DNA of 6,639 nt, taken from NCBI GenBank assembly GCA_029239415.1, contig JAQZAY010000213.1, positions 1 to 6,639 of the forward strand, written 5' to 3'. Under the pieces are notes generated by a model that searched no databases, had not been told where the DNA came from, and saw only the letters and a program-made list of their open reading frames with translations. Both the position numbers and the translations under genes were made by a program. The DNA comes from Pseudomonas sp. GTDB taxonomy: Bacteria; Pseudomonadota; Gammaproteobacteria; Pseudomonadales; Pseudomonadaceae. Of the stretch, positions 173-6,639 are shown piece after piece (position 1 is the stretch's first letter; each line of letters begins with the position of its first letter).

Positions 173-178
173 TCCCTC
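173..178 (-). promoter_or_regulatory. Ribosome binding site of the aldolase, overlapping the preceding stop codon
   Basis: GAGGGA on the minus strand lies 6 nt upstream of the ATG at 166-164. It shares two bases with the TGA (179-177) of the aldehyde dehydrogenase gene. This placement selects the aldolase start and suggests that ribosomes finishing the dehydrogenase reinitiate on the aldolase, which would help equal expression of two proteins known to form a complex. Confidence 0.7.
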
Positions 179-1106
179 AGGCGGTGGCAGGTTGGGCGGA
201 GGCAGTACGCAGCACCCGGTCGCCCTTGAGGATGTCCTCGGCGAACAGTTCGGCAGTGCGCGCTGCAGCAGCAGTCATGATGTCGAGGTTGCCGGCATAC
301 TTGGGCAGGTAGTCGCCCAGGCCTTCGACCTCCATGAAGATCGAGACGCGATTGCCATCGAAGACCGGGCCGTTGACCAGCTTGTAGCCCGGCACGTAGC
401 GCTGCACCTCGAGGATCATGGCGGCGATGGAGGCACGGATGGCGTCTTCATTGGGGGTCTGGGCAGTGATGCAGTGCACGGTGTCGCGCATGATCAGCGG
501 CGGCTCGGCCGGGTTGATGATGATGATCGCCTTGCCCTGTTTCGCGCCGCCGACCTGTTCCACTGCGCGGGCGGTGGTGCGGGTGAACTCGTCGATGTTC
601 TTGCGCGTTCCGGGGCCTACCGATTTGGAGGCGGCAGTGGCGATGATCTCGGCATAGTCCACCGCCTGCACGCTTGACACCGCGGCGACCAGGGGAATCG
701 TCGCCTGGCCACCGCAGGTGACCATGTTGACGTTCATCTCGCCACGCGCCAGGTTGGCCTCGAGATTGACCGGTGGAACGCAATAAGGACCGATGGCGCA
801 CGGGGTGAGGTCGATCATCAGCACGCCGAGGGCGTTGAGCTTGCGCGAGTTCTCGGCATGCACGTAGGCGGAGGTAGCGTCGAAGGCGATCTGCACCTGG
901 TCCTCGAGCACATGCGGCAACAGGCCGTCGACGCCCAGCGCGGTGGTCTTCAGGCCCAGCTCGCGCGCGCGCTGCAGGCCGTCGGAAGCGTCATCGATGC
1001 CCACCATCCAGACCGGCTCGAGCACCTCGCTGCGCATCAGTTTGTAGAGCAGGTCGGTGCCGATGTTACCCGGGCCGATCAGCGCGCATTTGATCTTCTT
1101 GCTCAT
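177..1106 (-). CDS. Acetaldehyde/propionaldehyde dehydrogenase (CoA-acylating)
   Basis: 309-residue NAD-dependent acylating aldehyde dehydrogenase (EC 1.2.1.10; DmpF/BphJ/MhpF/HsaG/TesF family). It oxidises the aldehyde released by the aldolase to acetyl-CoA or propionyl-CoA. The N-terminal Rossmann motif GPGNIGTD lies at residues 11-18. The catalytic cysteine is C131 in the conserved stretch [12 protein letters not shown], and a family motif [14 protein letters not shown] lies near residue 162. Length matches the family (about 305-320), so the gene looks complete. The start is supported by GGAG 9 nt upstream. The gene lies 38 nt after the hydratase and 10 nt before the aldolase, the usual order for this trio. 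In steroid degraders the physiological substrate would be propanal; the sequence alone does not settle C2 versus C3. Confidence 0.96.
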
Positions 1107-1144: not shown

Positions 1145-1936
1145 TCAGGCGACGAAGCGCAGGCTGGCATTGCCCAGGCCGCTCATCGACAACGTGAGCC
1201 GGTCTCCCGGCACCAGTGGTATCAGCGGCGCCAGGGCGCCGGACAGAATGACTTCACCCCGGCGCAGGGGCATGCCCAGCTCGCCCAAGGTGTTGGCCAG
1301 CCAGGCCACGGCTTCGCAAGGGTGGCCCTGCACTGCCGAGCCCAGGCCGCTGCCGGCCGGTTGGCCATTTTTCAGGATGTGCATCTCGACCCGGGCCAGG
1401 TCCAGCTCGCGCGGGTCGATGCGCGCCGCGCCGAGGGCAAACACGCCGCACGAAGCGTTGTCGGCCACGGTGTCCTGGATGCGGATCTGCCAGTTGTCGA
1501 TGCGCGAATCGACGATCTCGAAGCACGGTGCCACTGCCTGGGTCGCGGCCAGCACGTCATGGGCACTGATTCCGGGACCTTGCAGGTCTTCACCGAGGAT
1601 GAAGGCGATCTCGCCTTCGGCACGGGGCTGGATCAGCTGGTGGCAGGCAAAACTCACTTCGCTGCCATCGGCTACCTGCATGGCATTGGTGAGAAAGCCG
1701 AAATCGGGCTGGTGCACGTCGAGCATCTGCTGCACGGCGCGGCTGGTGACACCGATCTTCTTGCCCACCAGCTGTTCGCCCAAGGCCTCGCGGCGTTGCA
1801 GGATCCGCAGGGAGATCCGGTAGGCCTGCTCCAGGCTGATGCCCGGATGGCGCTGGGTCAGGGGGGCGAGGGTGGTACGCCCCCGCAATGCATTGAACAG
1901 TTCATCGCCCAGGGCGGTGATCAATGAGGCATCCAT
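1145..1936 (-). CDS. 2-hydroxypenta-2,4-dienoate / 2-hydroxyhexa-2,4-dienoate hydratase
   Basis: 263-residue metal-dependent hydratase of the fumarylacetoacetase (FAH) fold (MhpD/DmpE/BphH/HsaE/TesE family). It adds water to a 2-hydroxy-2,4-dienoate to give the 4-hydroxy-2-oxoacid used by the aldolase. Visible features are GKKIGVTS at residues 58-65 with conserved K60, and the metal-binding acids E107 and E109 in PRAEGEIAF plus E140 in CFEIVDSRI, which match the Glu106/Glu108/Glu139 set of E. coli MhpD. Length is typical. The frame stays open to 1993, but that extension would read through the predicted terminator stem and lacks family sequence, so the ATG at 1936 is chosen. Its ribosome site is weak: only a GAGCGA-like stretch is present. 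The gene follows the SDR after 72 nt containing a terminator, so it may be expressed separately or at a lower level. Confidence 0.94.
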   Translation of the reverse strand: MDASLITALGDELFNALRGRTTLAPLTQRHPGISLEQAYRISLRILQRREALGEQLVGKKIGVTSRAVQQMLDVHQPDFGFLTNAMQVADGSEVSFACHQLIQPRAEGEIAFILGEDLQGPGISAHDVLAATQAVAPCFEIVDSRIDNWQIRIQDTVADNASCGVFALGAARIDPRELDLARVEMHILKNGQPAGSGLGSAVQGHPCEAVAWLANTLGELGMPLRRGEVILSGALAPLIPLVPGDRLTLSMSGLGNASLRFVA

Positions 1937-1964
1937 GGTGGCTTCGCTCGTGGCATGGGGAATG

Positions 1965-1997
1965 AAAAAGCCGGTCCCAAGGGTCCAGGGCACCGGC
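1965..1997 (-). terminator. Predicted Rho-independent terminator between the SDR and hydratase genes
   Basis: Read on the minus strand, GCCGGT (1997-1992) pairs with ACCGGC (1975-1970). After one bulged base, three further G/C pairs extend the stem (1990-1988 with 1978-1976) and enclose a 9-nt loop. The stem is followed directly by five T residues (1969-1965), the layout of an intrinsic terminator. No T-run follows on the plus strand, so it acts leftward only. It begins 11 nt after the SDR stop codon and ends 28 nt before the hydratase start, so it could end the SDR transcript or let only part of it through. Confidence 0.72.
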
Positions 1998-2008: not shown

Positions 2009-2791
2009 TCAGCCCGGCCAGACGCTGCTGTCGGCACCGCCGTCGACATCGATGATCTTGCCGGTAACCCAGCCAGAGGCGGGGCTGGCCAGGTAGAGGG
2101 CTGCCGCGGCGATATCCTCGGGGCTGCCCAGGCAACCGAGCGGCGTGCTGGCTTCCATGGTCTGGCGCATGGCTGCGGGCATCACTTTGCCCAAGGCCTC
2201 GGTCAGGGTCGGGCCGGGCGCCACCGCATTGACCCGCACCTGGGGCGCGAAGTCCTGGGCGAGCAGGCGCGTCAGGTGGCTCAGCGCTGCCTTGGCCGTG
2301 CCGTAGGCGCTGAAATGGCGCTGCGCATAGCGCGCCGCCACCGAGCTGATGTTGACGATATTGCCGCCGCCGGCCTCGCGCATCACGGGTACGCACAGCT
2401 GGCACAGGGCATAGGCGCTGGACACGTTGAAACGCAGGATGTCGTCGAACTGCTCGGGGCTCAGGGCAAGGGCGTCGTTGGGGCCGCCGCCGCCAGCATT
2501 GTTGACCAGGTGGGTGATGCGCCCGAAGTGCTCCTGGCTGCAACGGACCAGGGCCTGGCGCTGCTCAGCGTCGTTGACATCGCAGGCGATGGCCAGGGCT
2601 CCTCGCCCGAGCCTGCGGACCTCTTCGGCGACCTGTTCGATGTCCTCGATGCTGCGCGCGCTGCACACCACGTCGGCGCCCGCTTCGGCGTAGGCCAAGG
2701 CAATGGCGCGGCCAATGCCACGCCCGCTGCCGGTGACAATGGCCACGCGGCCAGGGAGCTGGAAACGTTGCAGGATATTCATTCGACTCAT
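2009..2791 (-). CDS. Short-chain dehydrogenase/reductase, 7-alpha-hydroxysteroid dehydrogenase-like
   Basis: Classical SDR of 260 residues, predicted NAD(P)-dependent and cytoplasmic. It has the cofactor motif TGSGRGIG (residues 20-27), NNAG (97-100), N122, and the catalytic set S150, Y163, K167 (YGTAK). From recall, it resembles E. coli 7-alpha-hydroxysteroid dehydrogenase (HdhA) in two places: the NNAGGGGP loop, and the C-terminal region with AP-G-TL-T-E/D-AL, then TP, LG, P-D-I-A, AAL and SP-A--WV-G. A hydroxysteroid or related alcohol/ketone substrate is therefore plausible, but FabG-like SDRs are so diverse that substrate assignment is inference. It is the first gene of the leftward set. 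Two starts are possible: ATG at 2791, with GAGG 4 nt upstream, or ATG at 2782 (257 residues, starting MNILQRF, common for the family), with AAGGA 8 nt upstream. The stop is followed by a predicted terminator. Confidence 0.9.
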   Translation of the reverse strand: MSRMNILQRFQLPGRVAIVTGSGRGIGRAIALAYAEAGADVVCSARSIEDIEQVAEEVRRLGRGALAIACDVNDAEQRQALVRCSQEHFGRITHLVNNAGGGGPNDALALSPEQFDDILRFNVSSAYALCQLCVPVMREAGGGNIVNISSVAARYAQRHFSAYGTAKAALSHLTRLLAQDFAPQVRVNAVAPGPTLTEALGKVMPAAMRQTMEASTPLGCLGSPEDIAAAALYLASPASGWVTGKIIDVDGGADSSVWPG

Positions 2792-2853
2792 CCTTCCTCA
2801 AGCCTGGGCAGACCCCTGGGGCATTCGATGTGTCGAGTATTTCCCCTCGCCCA

Positions 2854-2890
2854 GGGGGCGGCATCGTCTCAACGGACTAACGCCGCCCCC
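2854..2890. repeat. Perfect 9-bp inverted repeat (GGGGGCGGC / GCCGCCCCC)
   Basis: Positions 2854-2862 are the exact reverse complement of 2882-2890, with a 19-nt loop that contains most of the left operator-like box. All nine pairs are G/C, so a transcript from either strand could fold strongly. No T-run follows on either strand, so it is not a standard intrinsic terminator. In a GC-rich spacer, part of this could be chance. Confidence 0.55.
2864..2879. promoter_or_regulatory. Operator-like near-palindrome, left box
   Basis: TCGTC-N6-GACTA is a 16-bp imperfect palindrome with 4 of 5 arm pairs matching, typical in size for a dimeric repressor or activator. It is the mirror image of the right box at 2914-2929: outside the central N4 (2869-2872), the stretch 2862-2879 matches the reverse complement of 2914-2931 at every base. 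Its centre lies about 80 bp from the SDR start codon. The cognate regulator is not in the window; family assignment (GntR, TetR or MarR type) would be a guess. Confidence 0.5.
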
Positions 2891-2913
2891 GCCAGCCCAG
2901 GCCTGCGCTGCTC

Positions 2914-2929
2914 TAGTCCGCATTGACGA
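2914..2929. promoter_or_regulatory. Operator-like near-palindrome, right box
   Basis: TAGTC-N6-GACGA is the mirror copy of the left box, centred 50 bp away, close to five helical turns, so one regulator could bind both on nearly the same DNA face. Its centre lies about 82 bp upstream of the monooxygenase start codon, almost the same distance as the left box to the SDR start. A -35-like TTGACG (2923-2928) overlaps it, which would fit repression, although no good -10 accompanies that hexamer. Confidence 0.5.
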
Positions 2930-2990
2930 TGATCCCCAGGCGCCGCAGCCGGATGATCGGTCATGGCTCGCGCATTGGCGCAACGAGATC

Positions 2991-2994: not shown

Positions 2995-3003
2995 AACAGA
3001 GTG

Positions 3004-4191
3004 ATGCACAGCATGCGAGAAAAGACCGCGGACGAAATCCAACTGCTGGAAAGGGCGCGCCAGCTGCTGCCGGCCCTGAGGGAACGCTCGGCGCAAGGGG
3101 ACCTCGAGCTCAAGGTCGCCGAAGACACCATCGCCGACCTGAAAGCGGCGGGGCTGTTGCGCGCCTTGCAGCCGCGCGCCTTCGGTGGCTTCGAAGTGGA
3201 CCCGCGCACGTTCTTCGAGATCCAGATGATCCTGGCCCAAGGCTGCATGTCCACTGCCTGGGTCTACGGGGTCATGGGCGTGCACCCTTGGCAGCTGGCG
3301 CGCTACCCGGTCGAAGCCCAGCGCGAGGTCTGGGGCCAGGACCCGGACACCCTGGTGTCCTCCACCTACATGCCGACCGCCAAGGTCACGGTCGTCGAAG
3401 GTGGCTACCGGATCAGCGGGCGCTGGGGCTTCTCCAGTGGCAGCGAACATTGCCAGTGGGCATTGCTGGGCGGGATCCTGCCGGCGGACGACACGCAGGC
3501 CGCCGAGCACGGCACCTTCCTGCTGCCGCGTGCCGACTACCGCATCGAACGCAACTGGGACGTGCTGGGCCTGCGCGGTACCGGCAGCCACGACATCATC
3601 GTCGAAGACGCCTTCGTGCCCGCGCACCGGGTCCAGCGCACCAACAATTGCTCCCTGGAGGCGACCCCAGGACGCCGGGTCAACACCAACCCTATCTATG
3701 CCATTCCCTTCGCCCAGGTGTTTTCCAGGGCCGTGTCGACCTCGGCCATCGGCGCCCTGCAAGGCGCGATCGATCTGTTCCGCGCCAATGCCGCCCAGCA
3801 TATCGGCAAGCACGGCTCGCGCACGGCCGACGACCCGGCGGCGCAGACGGCCGTGGCCGACGCCACGATCACCGTCGACAGCCTCAGGCTGGTGCTCGAG
3901 CGCAACTACGAGCACCTGATGCAGCTGGCGCGTGCCGGTGAAATGCCCGATGTGGAAACCCGCCTGCTCTATCGCTACCAGTCGGCGTACGTCACCAACC
4001 TGTGCGCGGAGAAGGTCAACGAACTGCTGCGCTGCATGGCCGCCTCCGGGCTCTACAACACCAACCCGGTGGCGCGCCTGTTCCGTGACCTGCACCAGGC
4101 GCGCGGGCATATCGCCAACAACTTCCAGGCCTACGGCCGCACCTTGGGCGCGGTGCAGCTGGGCTTGCCCAATCCGGACCCGTACGTCTGA
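3004..4191 (+). CDS. Flavin-dependent monooxygenase, HsaA/TesA2-like (acyl-CoA dehydrogenase fold)
   Basis: 395-residue group D flavin monooxygenase with the acyl-CoA dehydrogenase fold. The family includes HsaA/TesA2 (3-hydroxy-9,10-secosteroid 4-hydroxylase), the p-hydroxyphenylacetate hydroxylase C2 component and IacA; members use FMNH2 or FADH2 supplied by a separate reductase and O2. From recall, it matches HsaA along its length: LQPRAFGGFEVDP (55-67), STAWVYGVMGVHPWQLA (83-99), QREVWGQDP (106-114), WGFSSGSEHC (141-150), GLRGTGSHDIIVEDAFVP (189-206), FRDLHQARGHIANN (360-373) and the terminus GLPNPDPYV. Length equals that of HsaA (about 394). A true acyl-CoA dehydrogenase is unlikely given the SSG and RGTGS context and the neighbours. 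It is the first gene of the rightward set, with the KshB-like reductase 47 nt downstream. The expected flavin reductase partner (HsaB type) is not in view. The substrate could instead be another phenol or indole compound, as for IacA. Confidence 0.85.
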   Translation: MHSMREKTADEIQLLERARQLLPALRERSAQGDLELKVAEDTIADLKAAGLLRALQPRAFGGFEVDPRTFFEIQMILAQGCMSTAWVYGVMGVHPWQLARYPVEAQREVWGQDPDTLVSSTYMPTAKVTVVEGGYRISGRWGFSSGSEHCQWALLGGILPADDTQAAEHGTFLLPRADYRIERNWDVLGLRGTGSHDIIVEDAFVPAHRVQRTNNCSLEATPGRRVNTNPIYAIPFAQVFSRAVSTSAIGALQGAIDLFRANAAQHIGKHGSRTADDPAAQTAVADATITVDSLRLVLERNYEHLMQLARAGEMPDVETRLLYRYQSAYVTNLCAEKVNELLRCMAASGLYNTNPVARLFRDLHQARGHIANNFQAYGRTLGAVQLGLPNPDPYV

Positions 4192-4238: not shown

Positions 4239-5261
4239 ATGAATGACTTTCTTGCCTTGCGCGTGGCGCGGGTGGTCGAGGAAACGGCCGATGCCTGCTC
4301 GCTGATCTTCGACGTGCCCGAGCACCTCGCCGAGCGCTTTCACTACCAGCCTGGGCAGTTCCTGACCCTGCGCATCCCCTACGCAGATGACTGGTTGCCG
4401 CGCTGCTATTCGCTGTCGAGCACGCCATTGCTGGACGAGCCATTGCGGGTGACGGTCAAGCGGGTCCGCGATGGACGCGCCTCGAACTGGCTGTGCGGCC
4501 AATTGCAGGAGGGCCAGACCCTGCAAGTGCTGCCGCCGGCGGGCGTGTTCGTGCCGCGCGACCTGGACGCCGACCTGCTGTTGTTCGGCGGTGGCAGCGG
4601 CGTGACGCCGGTGCTGTCGATCCTGCGCTCGGCGCTGTTGGCCGGCCAGGGGCGGATCCTGCTGATCTATGCCAACCGCAATGAAGCCTCGGTGATTTTC
4701 CGGGACGAGCTGCGGCTGCTCGCCAGCGCCCATCCTGAGCGCTTGCAGGTGGTGCACTGGCTCGATGTGGTCCAGGGCATACCGAGCGCGCAGCAGCTGG
4801 CGACGCTGGCCCGGCCGTTCATGGACGCCGAGGCGTTCATCTGCGGGCCTGGACCGTTCATGGACACTGCGGTCAGCGCTCTCAAGAGCTTGGGTGTTCC
4901 GGCCAGTCGGGTGCATGTGGAGCGCTTCGTCTCGTTGCCGGGAGAGGGAGAGACGGTGCAGTTGCACGCCAGTGAAGCGGCGGTGGCCGCACAGCTGGCC
5001 GTGCGCCTGGACGGCGAGGATCACCAGCTCGACTGTGCCAGCGGCGAAACCGTGCTGGCGGCCATGGAGCGGGCCGGCCTCAAGCCTCCCAGTGCCTGCA
5101 GGGTGGGCGGCTGCGCCTCGTGCATGTGCACCCTTGAAAGTGGCGACATCGAACTGCTGCTCAACGATGCCCTGGAGGCCGACGAACTGGCCGAGGGCTG
5201 GATCCTGGCCTGCCAGGCCGTCCCCACCAGTGCGCACCTGCGTATCCGATTCCCCGAGTGA
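4239..5261 (+). CDS. FAD/NAD(P)H and 2Fe-2S oxidoreductase, KshB-like reductase component
   Basis: 340-residue electron-transfer reductase with domain order FAD, NAD(P)H, plant-type 2Fe-2S ferredoxin at the C-terminus. This order is that of KshB (reductase of 3-ketosteroid 9-alpha-hydroxylase), PaaE and related phthalate-type relatives. The FAD motif RCYSLSS spans residues 55-61, as in KshB. The nucleotide-binding loop GGGSGVTP is at 117-124 and CGPGPFMD at 202-209. The cluster ligands are C287, C292, C295 and C325, a perfect C-X4-C-X2-C-X29-C set. It would pass electrons from NADH to a Rieske oxygenase such as KshA, which is not in the window. It could conceivably serve the adjacent monooxygenase instead, but HsaA-type enzymes normally take free reduced flavin from a small flavin reductase. 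The stop codon overlaps or nearly abuts the start of the ligase gene, so the two are probably co-translated. Confidence 0.9.
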   Translation: MNDFLALRVARVVEETADACSLIFDVPEHLAERFHYQPGQFLTLRIPYADDWLPRCYSLSSTPLLDEPLRVTVKRVRDGRASNWLCGQLQEGQTLQVLPPAGVFVPRDLDADLLLFGGGSGVTPVLSILRSALLAGQGRILLIYANRNEASVIFRDELRLLASAHPERLQVVHWLDVVQGIPSAQQLATLARPFMDAEAFICGPGPFMDTAVSALKSLGVPASRVHVERFVSLPGEGETVQLHASEAAVAAQLAVRLDGEDHQLDCASGETVLAAMERAGLKPPSACRVGGCASCMCTLESGDIELLLNDALEADELAEGWILACQAVPTSAHLRIRFPE

Positions 5262-5266
5262 TGCCT

Positions 5267-6639
5267 ATGAACGACCCAGTCATGACCCCAAGCGTGAGCA
5301 GTGACCCGAGCCCGGCTGCGGTGCCGGCCACCATTCCCCGGCTGCTGTTCGACAGCGCCCAGCGTTTCGCCGGCCGTACCGCGATCGAGGACGACGGCAT
5401 CTGCATCGATTATGCGCAACTGCCGGCGCTGGCGCTGGAGGTCACGCGCGGGCTGATGGCGCTGGGCATCCAGCCCGGCGAGCGGGTTGGCGTATGGGCG
5501 CCGAATGGGCGCGACTGGATCATCGCCGCCCTGGGCATTCATTGCGCGGGCGCCGTGCTGGTGCCGCTCAATACCCGCGCCAAGGGCAGCGAAGCCGCCG
5601 ATGTGCTCGCGCGCAGCGGTTGCCGGGTGCTGTTCGTCCAGCAACGCTTCCTCGACACCGACTATCCGGCCATGCTGCAGCCGTTTCGTCCGCGTAGCCT
5701 GGCCCACCTGGTGGTGCTGGACAGCGATTCGCCGCGTGAGCACTGCGACCTGACCTTCGAGCAGTTCAAGGCCGGGGCCGTGACGGTCGAGGCACTGACC
5801 GCCCGGCGGCGGGCCCTGTCCATCCAGCCGGAGGCGGTCTGCGACCTGCTGTTCACCTCGGGCACCACGGGCAAGCCCAAGGGCGTGATGAGCGGGCATG
5901 GCGCCTGCCTGCGTGCCTTCAGCGAATACGTGCGGGTGATCGGCCTGGTGCCGGGAGACCGCTACCTCATCGTCAACCCGTTCTTCCATGCCTTCGGCTA
6001 CAAGGCCGGCTGGCTGACGTGCCTGCTTGCCGGGGCGACCATCCTGCCGCATGCGGTCTTCGACGCCGACGCCGTGTTCCAGCGGATCGCCCATGACCGT
6101 ATCAGCGTGCTGCCCGGTGCGCCCACCTTGTACCTGTCGTTGCTGGCGCACCCGCGCCTGCGCGAAACCGACCTGTCGAGCCTGCGCATCGCCGTGACCG
6201 GATCGGCCAGCATTCCACCGAGCCTGATCGAGCGCATGCGCGACGAGCTGGGCTTCAGCTGCGTGATCACCGCCTACGGCCTGACCGAATGCGGCGGCCT
6301 GGCCACGCTGTGCGATCCCCGGGACTCGGCCGAGACCATCGCCACCACCAGCGGACGGGCGCTGGCAGGCACCGAAGTGAGTATCCGCGACCCGCACGGC
6401 CAGGCGTTGGCCACCGGTGACACCGGCGAGATCTGCCTGCGCGGCTTCCATGTGATGCAGGGGTATTTCGAGGACCCTGCAGCGACTGCCGAGGCCATCG
6501 ACAGCGAAGGCTGGCTGCATACCGGGGATGTCGGGCGCCTGGATGACTCAGGCAACCTGATCATCACCGATCGGCTCAAGGACCTGTTCATCGTGGGCGG
6601 CTTCAACTGCTACCCGGCAGAGATCGAGGCTGCCCTGAT
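5267..6639 (+). CDS. Acyl-CoA synthetase (AMP-forming), FadD3-like, 3' end missing
   Basis: ANL-superfamily ligase that activates a carboxylic acid to its CoA thioester through an acyl-AMP. The first 457 codons are visible, with no stop before the right edge. Motifs from the first codon used: P-loop TSGTTGKPKG (197-206), NPFFHAFGY (core motif near 235), AYGLTECGG, WLHTGD, and the hinge-region DRLKDLFIVGGFNCYPAEIE near the end. The VGGFN-YPAEIE form is like FadD3, the ligase for the C/D-ring propanoate HIP in steroid degradation, and the neighbours agree; a medium-chain or aromatic acid ligase remains possible. The C-terminal lid with the A10 catalytic lysine lies beyond the edge. Two starts are possible: ATG at 5261, which shares its A with the reductase stop (TGATG), or ATG at 5267, which leaves a GAG-containing site 6-9 nt upstream. 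Either implies translational coupling to the reductase. Confidence 0.9.
   Translation, partial: MNDPVMTPSVSSDPSPAAVPATIPRLLFDSAQRFAGRTAIEDDGICIDYAQLPALALEVTRGLMALGIQPGERVGVWAPNGRDWIIAALGIHCAGAVLVPLNTRAKGSEAADVLARSGCRVLFVQQRFLDTDYPAMLQPFRPRSLAHLVVLDSDSPREHCDLTFEQFKAGAVTVEALTARRRALSIQPEAVCDLLFTSGTTGKPKGVMSGHGACLRAFSEYVRVIGLVPGDRYLIVNPFFHAFGYKAGWLTCLLAGATILPHAVFDADAVFQRIAHDRISVLPGAPTLYLSLLAHPRLRETDLSSLRIAVTGSASIPPSLIERMRDELGFSCVITAYGLTECGGLATLCDPRDSAETIATTSGRALAGTEVSIRDPHGQALATGDTGEICLRGFHVMQGYFEDPAATAEAIDSEGWLHTGDVGRLDDSGNLIITDRLKDLFIVGGFNCYPAEIEAAL

Follow-up and report, generated by a model that had tools for sequence, protein, structure and literature searches.

Two directional boxes between divergent predicted steroid-catabolic operons of Pseudomonas are probably separate sites for a TeiR/TesR-type activator

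Two boxes lie between the divergent gene sets of the window, that is, the whole 6,639-nucleotide stretch of Pseudomonas DNA analyzed here, and are best read as separate sites for a TeiR/TesR-type activator of the LuxR family, one for each of two divergent predicted steroid-catabolic promoters. We put the probability of this reading, which is built on sequence comparisons, at roughly 0.84. The evidence comes from the conservation of the boxes in related spacers, their fixed distance to a -10-like hexamer, their concentration in one catabolic gene cluster of the closest relative found, and their co-occurrence with TeiR-like proteins.

As judged from open reading frames and profile matches, the window encodes two back-to-back predicted catabolic gene sets (Table 1). 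The HsaA-like, hydratase-like, reductase and FadD3-like proteins score below the equivalog cut-offs, and their names therefore denote the closest family. HsaA and FadD3 belong to the 9,10-seco pathway of steroid breakdown. The true start of the hydratase-like gene probably lies inside its open frame, and for the SDR gene the ATG at 2782 is a more likely start than that at 2791, because the purine-rich GGAAGG directly abuts 2791. A plasmid origin of the window was also considered and rejected, as a megablast search against plasmids returned 43 records, none with a coverage of 80% of the window and the best of the listed places with 17%.

Table 1. Predicted features of the window, with positions counted from its first letter
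Feature	Position	Strand	Remarks
4-hydroxy-2-oxovalerate aldolase (DmpG-like; dmpG)	next after 177..1106, running off the window at 1	-	named from similarity matches
Acetaldehyde dehydrogenase (acetylating)	177..1106	-	model match above cut-off
2-oxopent-4-enoate hydratase-like	1145..1993	-	best model TIGR03220, 377 bits; cut-off of 408.8 not reached
SDR (short-chain dehydrogenase/reductase), gene 1 of the leftward operon	2009..2791	-	start perhaps 2782
Predicted -10 element AATACT of the leftward operon, 20 bp beyond the left box	2836..2841	-	NANNNT at the exact offset
Left box TAGTCCGTTGAGACGATG, predicted TeiR/TesR activator site of the leftward (SDR) operon	2862..2879	-	conservation in spacers
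Right box TAGTCCGCATTGACGATG, predicted TeiR/TesR activator site of the rightward (HsaA-like) operon	2914..2931	+	conservation in spacers
Predicted -10 element GATGAT of the rightward operon, 20 bp beyond the right box	2952..2957	+	NANNNT at the exact offset
HsaA-like flavin-dependent monooxygenase, gene 1 of the rightward operon	3001..4191	+	best model NF045629, 373 bits; below equivalog cut-off of 450
Ferredoxin/flavin-type oxidoreductase (PaaE/KshB-like)	4239..5261	+	under the cut-offs of the listed models
FadD3-like acyl-CoA ligase, truncated at the window end	5258..6639	+	best model NF005801, 581 bits; whole-protein cut-off 657

The preliminary description of this DNA had reported a mirror pair, CATCGTC-N4-CGGACTA (2862-2879) and its reverse complement (2914-2931), and both letters and coordinates are correct. 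Read toward its own gene, each box consists of the arms TAGTCCG and GACGATG, separated by TTGA in the left box (minus strand, from 2879 down to 2862) and by CATT in the right box (plus strand, 2914-2931). All 14 arm positions agree between the two boxes, and the four differences all fall in N4. The 16-bp near-palindromes within the boxes pair at four of five arm positions and are centered 50 bp apart, while the dyad center of the pair (2896.5) is 105.5 bp away from the start codon of the SDR gene (ATG, 2791) and 107.5 bp away from the opposite ATG (3004). The mirror score of 14 of 18 is weak if taken alone and was rejected as evidence, because an 18-bp mirror pair with at least 14 matches appeared in 113 of 1000 Markov-resampled spacers. 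Among 20,000 resampled spacers, however, only six contained a mirror pair of the exact 7-N4-7 form.

Conservation in relatives was assessed over 80 loci, comprising 60 Pseudomonas-type relatives with an HsaA at least 70% identical to that of the window and 20 loci with an HsaA below 70%. The closest relative found (L001, record P. fluorescens isolate PS910) has an HsaA 97% identical and is located in genome G001. Divergent spacers, in which a relative of HsaA (at least 70%) faces a relative of the SDR (more than 60%) within 500 bp, were present in 22 relatives and the window, giving 23 spacers. The right box has no mismatch at its 14 specified positions in any of them, and 22 spacers have a left box with one mismatch or none, the remaining spacer (L010) having three. 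Mean pairwise identity is 1.00 in the right arms and 0.95 in the left arms, against 0.37 and 0.34, respectively, in the 25 bp upstream. The boxes are thus kept in orthologous spacers while their flanks change, and so survive one of the refutation tests named in the preliminary description.

A box with at most one mismatch lies within 400 bp upstream of HsaA in every one of the 61 sequences with an HsaA at least 70% identical (window included). Among the 20 loci with an HsaA below 70%, a box occurs near HsaA in two Comamonas loci (L058 and L059), and no box with the full GACGATG arm was found near HsaA in the other 18. One 3072-bp sequence recorded as Mycobacterium sp. MBM (L050) encodes an HsaA 76% identical to that of the window together with an intact box, and looks like a contaminant contig.

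Each box is tied to a -10-like hexamer. A NANNNT hexamer lies exactly 20 bp beyond GACGATG on both sides of all 23 spacers and in 59 of the 61 HsaA promoters. We pooled 76 matches from regions with boxes in eight genomes, of which five are Pseudomonas-type, two are from Comamonas and one is from another member of the Comamonadaceae. This pool includes coding and chance matches and counts palindromic sites on both strands. NANNNT was found at offset 20 in 53 of these, at offset 21 in 12, and at any other offset in at most seven. When the downstream sequences of four genomes were shuffled, a count as high as the observed one was reached, at whichever offset, in 0, 2, 1 and 0 of 2000 shuffles. 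The pooled hexamer has A at position 2 (58 of 76 sites) and T at position 6 (57 of 76), and the consensus of the 76 sites is TMGTCY-N5-GACGATG.

With the hexamer taken as -12 to -7, the box would span about -50 to -33 and the center of its 16-bp dyad would fall near -42.5. This is the classic position of lux boxes and of class II activators. The spacing and orientation are fixed and GACGATG is strongly conserved, which would also suit the core promoter of an alternative (ECF-type) sigma factor with GACGATG as its -35-like element and the hexamer as its -10. That reading is extremely unlikely, given that the distal arm TMGTCY is conserved as well and makes the box a dyad, that the hexamer resembles a sigma-70 -10 in its A2 and T6, and that there is no sigma-factor domain among the Pfam families listed for the steroid cluster of G001.

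The dyad is imperfect. Positions 6 and 11, which should pair in a strict dyad, mostly do not, being complementary in 29 of 76 sites, and position 11 is a purine in 67. In 59 asymmetric boxes the hexamer stands on the GACGATG side 45 times and at the mirror place six times. Since the imperfect dyad gives the box a direction, a divergent operon pair needs two mirror-oriented boxes, and the pair in the window looks like a designed mirror because each operon needs a directional box of its own. Boxes of the palindromic form CATCGTC-N6-GACGATG account for 17 strand entries, with the hexamer on one side in eight and on the other side in seven, which is suggestive only of some of them serving two promoters from one site. 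Palindromic sites of this form were seen at L132:6782-6801, L132:9381-9400, L135:12953-12972, L140:1517-1536, L141:2045-2064, L141:6910-6929, L142:14941-14960 and L096:6856-6875.

The preliminary description had interpreted the symmetry of the boxes as a sign that one regulator controls both gene sets, perhaps by bridging. In a bridged or looped pair, a single complex on both boxes would silence or activate both promoters from the shared center. The mirror orientation and the near-equal distances to the start codons in the window agree with such a looping pair, but the center-to-center distance of the boxes ranges from 26 to 226 bp across the 23 spacers, and no helical phase was detected in the 17 distinct distances (Rayleigh p ~0.88). 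Each box holds a constant distance to its own -10-like hexamer while the spacing between boxes is free. Where the genes are further apart (L013, L016 and L024), the SDR gene and its box lie several hundred to more than 1000 bp from the HsaA box and each box keeps to its own gene, and non-divergent genes in the same cluster are served by single boxes. Bridging is therefore very unlikely, and a meaning of the common center is not supported. Because the spacing varies and each box stays with its own gene, the near-equal distances (105 and 107 bp) are a coincidence of one sequence. What stands of the earlier proposal is that the boxes are operator-like and that one type of regulator probably serves both gene sets.

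The preliminary description had put forward a motif scan of the host genome, and a scan of this kind in the genome of the closest relative found showed a clustered rather than random distribution. In G001, 11 of the 13 matches to TMGTCY-N5-GACGATG fall within one 66-kb stretch of catabolic genes (C1:604757-670931), and the pattern read backwards has no match in this genome. Proteins of the stretch match Pfam models such as KshA_C, ChsH2 and BphC_D1. The G001 sites precede genes predicted, from Pfam tallies and similarity, to encode the SDR, HsaA, an HsaC/TesB-like dioxygenase, a flavin reductase, an FAD-dependent dehydrogenase, an old-yellow-enzyme-type protein and DUF1329 proteins, among others. 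Two of the 11 cluster sites overlap open frames as delimited by mechanical gene calling. The two matches outside the cluster lie inside open frames, have no hexamer and do not belong to the pooled 76.

At two of the 11 sites, the upstream gene ends in a TAG stop codon that doubles as the first three letters of the box (L083:3052-3054 and L082:7041-7043). The upstream genes concerned are a teiR-like gene and an acyl-CoA-ligase-like gene.

The candidate regulator is encoded in the same cluster. Among the Pfam families listed for its 71 ORFs, the only HTH-type match is GerE (PF00196, LuxR family; with a weaker overlapping HTH_30 match), and it occurs in two TeiR/TesR-like proteins of 411 and 404 aa. 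The families beyond those listed number up to 17 for A2, four for A5 and one for A3, and 12 of the 24 A2 members were scanned in full. The GerE match has an E value of 7.5e-05 in one protein (22.7 bits, just under the cut-off of 23.5) and of 2.1e-05 in the other (24.5 bits, above it). The TeiR-like proteins of Pseudomonas and Comamonas are 46% identical overall and share an unchanged recognition region, the helix RRNTARAHLRSIFSKTGVRRQTELVR. In a model of the TeiR-like protein, the first domain is GAF-like and would suit ligand sensing. A teiR gene would be expected next to the boxes of the window as well, by analogy with L001 and G001 (HsaA 97% identical).

In a Haliea relative, the recognition region of the TeiR-like protein is changed and no box was found in the 21 kb examined. 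TeiR-like proteins 30-36% identical are encoded in L111, L120, L126 (G011, Haliea) and L063; their recognition regions are changed in the first three, and the stretch of L063 examined has no box. These proteins are perhaps a related regulator with another operator. One TeiR-like gene itself has a palindromic box 131 bp upstream (L100:2250-2267; G004:C107), perhaps a case of autoregulation.

The number of boxes follows the presence of TeiR. Of 249 genomes from the same genus as G001, 40 were TeiR-positive at E 1e-40 or better, with up to seven candidates scored per genome. At least four boxes of the form TAGTCY-N5-GACGATG were found in 38 of the 40 TeiR-positive genomes versus none of the 209 TeiR-negative ones (Fisher 7e-43). 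This stricter pattern was applied because the five box-rich TeiR-negative genomes inspected (G174, G065, G053, G054 and G122) carry almost only TCGTC-type matches, with two TAGTC-type matches in G054. With the loose motif, the medians are 11 and 3, and at least eight matches occur in 36 of the 40 versus 2 of the 209. The exceptions to the strict pattern are G239, where a TeiR-like protein (38%) occurs without any TAGTCY-type box, and G237, which has three such boxes. In 150 Comamonadaceae genomes, the medians of loose matches are 12.5 in eight TeiR-positive and 3 in 142 TeiR-negative genomes (Mann-Whitney p 2.5e-6), with overlapping ranges of 7 to 21 and 0 to 12, respectively. Because box and teiR are passed on together in one cluster, and because related species are not independent samples, the co-occurrence is an association and not a proof of contact.

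Some genomes (G218, G060 and similar ones) encode TeiR-like proteins only about 40% identical to the G001 protein and have the same box at the same 20-bp offset. As proteins this distant go with the same box and offset, the box seems older than the paralog split.

Imperfect palindromes fit many regulator families, and the box could instead be bound by a repressor or a different activator (TetR, LysR, GntR, MarR or IclR type), perhaps with its gene outside the cluster, while TeiR acts upstream or elsewhere. Passages of PMC6678751 and PMC8700777 do report several repressors and a LysR regulator of steroid genes in C. testosteroni. This alternative is nevertheless unlikely, as none of these five domain types, TetR included, is among the Pfam families listed for the 71 cluster ORFs, a site near -42.5 that abuts the -35 region at a rigid 20-bp offset is typical of activation, and box number follows TeiR.

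The predicted control by a TeiR/TesR-type activator can also be set against published genetics. In C. testosteroni, TesR is needed to induce tesB-tesR, tesA1-tesG and tesA2-ORF18, according to a passage of PMC6895838. In Comamonas, the tesA2 relative is preceded by a full box at a distance of 97-98 bp (L058, L059, L097 and L136), and the tesB relative also has a full box before it (L098 and L139). On the tesA1 side of the same spacer in L058 and L059, the box is degenerate, with mismatches at 3 of 13 positions, and CACTCT follows exactly 20 bp beyond. P. stutzeri Chol1 has two TeiR-like genes, and deletion of one delays cholate degradation (unpublished data cited in a part of the review PMC8399759), which fits the two paralogs in G001. 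We found no description of a TeiR/TesR operator in the open-access literature searched, and an earlier account may exist in a subscription journal.

A plausible mechanism runs as follows. A steroid or pathway intermediate would switch on TeiR via its amino-terminal GAF-like domain. Bound at a dyad near -42.5, the TeiR dimer would lie over the -35 region and recruit RNA polymerase by class II activation, in place of a -35 element. Active TeiR would thereby turn on both operons of the window and about ten other promoters of the cluster.

Beyond the window, we lean toward regarding TMGTCY-N5-GACGATG, placed 20 bp ahead of the -10, as a general "steroid box" of gamma- and betaproteobacteria and the operator of the whole TeiR/TesR family. 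Such a box would define a steroid regulon from sequence alone, its asymmetry would set the direction of transcription, and its palindromic form CATCGTC-N6-GACGATG could serve two divergent promoters from a single site. An operator with a rigid promoter layout offers a testable target for the TeiR/TesR family, predicts steroid-regulon genes in new genomes and provides a promoter module for steroid biosensors. With such an operator, the "membrane kinase" role reported for TeiR could also be weighed against that of a plain DNA-binding protein.

Among known systems, EdcR, the TetR-type estrogen-dependent repressor of Caenibius tardaugens (PMC8700777), resembles the present case in that it controls a proteobacterial steroid cluster with divergent operons, but differs in regulator family and pathway. 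No TeiR homolog is reported for this species in a passage of PMC6895838. The KstR and KstR2 operators of actinobacteria control an analogous pathway (with HsaA, HsaC and FadD3 among its enzymes). However, KstR and KstR2 are TetR-type repressors, no TetR domain is among those listed for the G001 cluster, and KstR1 and KstR2 homologs are absent from bile-acid-degrading Proteobacteria according to a section of PMC8399759. The remark in the preliminary description that the boxes do not look like KstR or KstR2 operators is consistent with these data.

Lux boxes and class II activation by LuxR-family proteins offer an analogy, in that an imperfect dyad, about 20 bp long, overlaps the -35 region with its center near -42.5 and the candidate binder has a LuxR-type HTH. 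TMGTCY-N5-GACGATG differs in sequence from the canonical lux box, and the resemblance concerns the proposed working mode. The first domain of the candidate regulator, moreover, looks GAF-like in the model, which may set it apart from an acyl-homoserine-lactone domain.

The TeiR/TesR system of C. testosteroni differs from our reading in its published picture, as passages of the review PMC6678751 attribute kinase activity to TeiR, which is a polar membrane protein in that account. Such a role fits a simple DNA-binding activator poorly, and Pfam searches of the TeiR-like proteins gave only HTH matches. The likeness is that the same regulator family, with an identical recognition region, is encoded in the G001 cluster, and that the boxes precede relatives of tesA2 and tesB, the heads of two of the gene groups that require TesR in the published passage.
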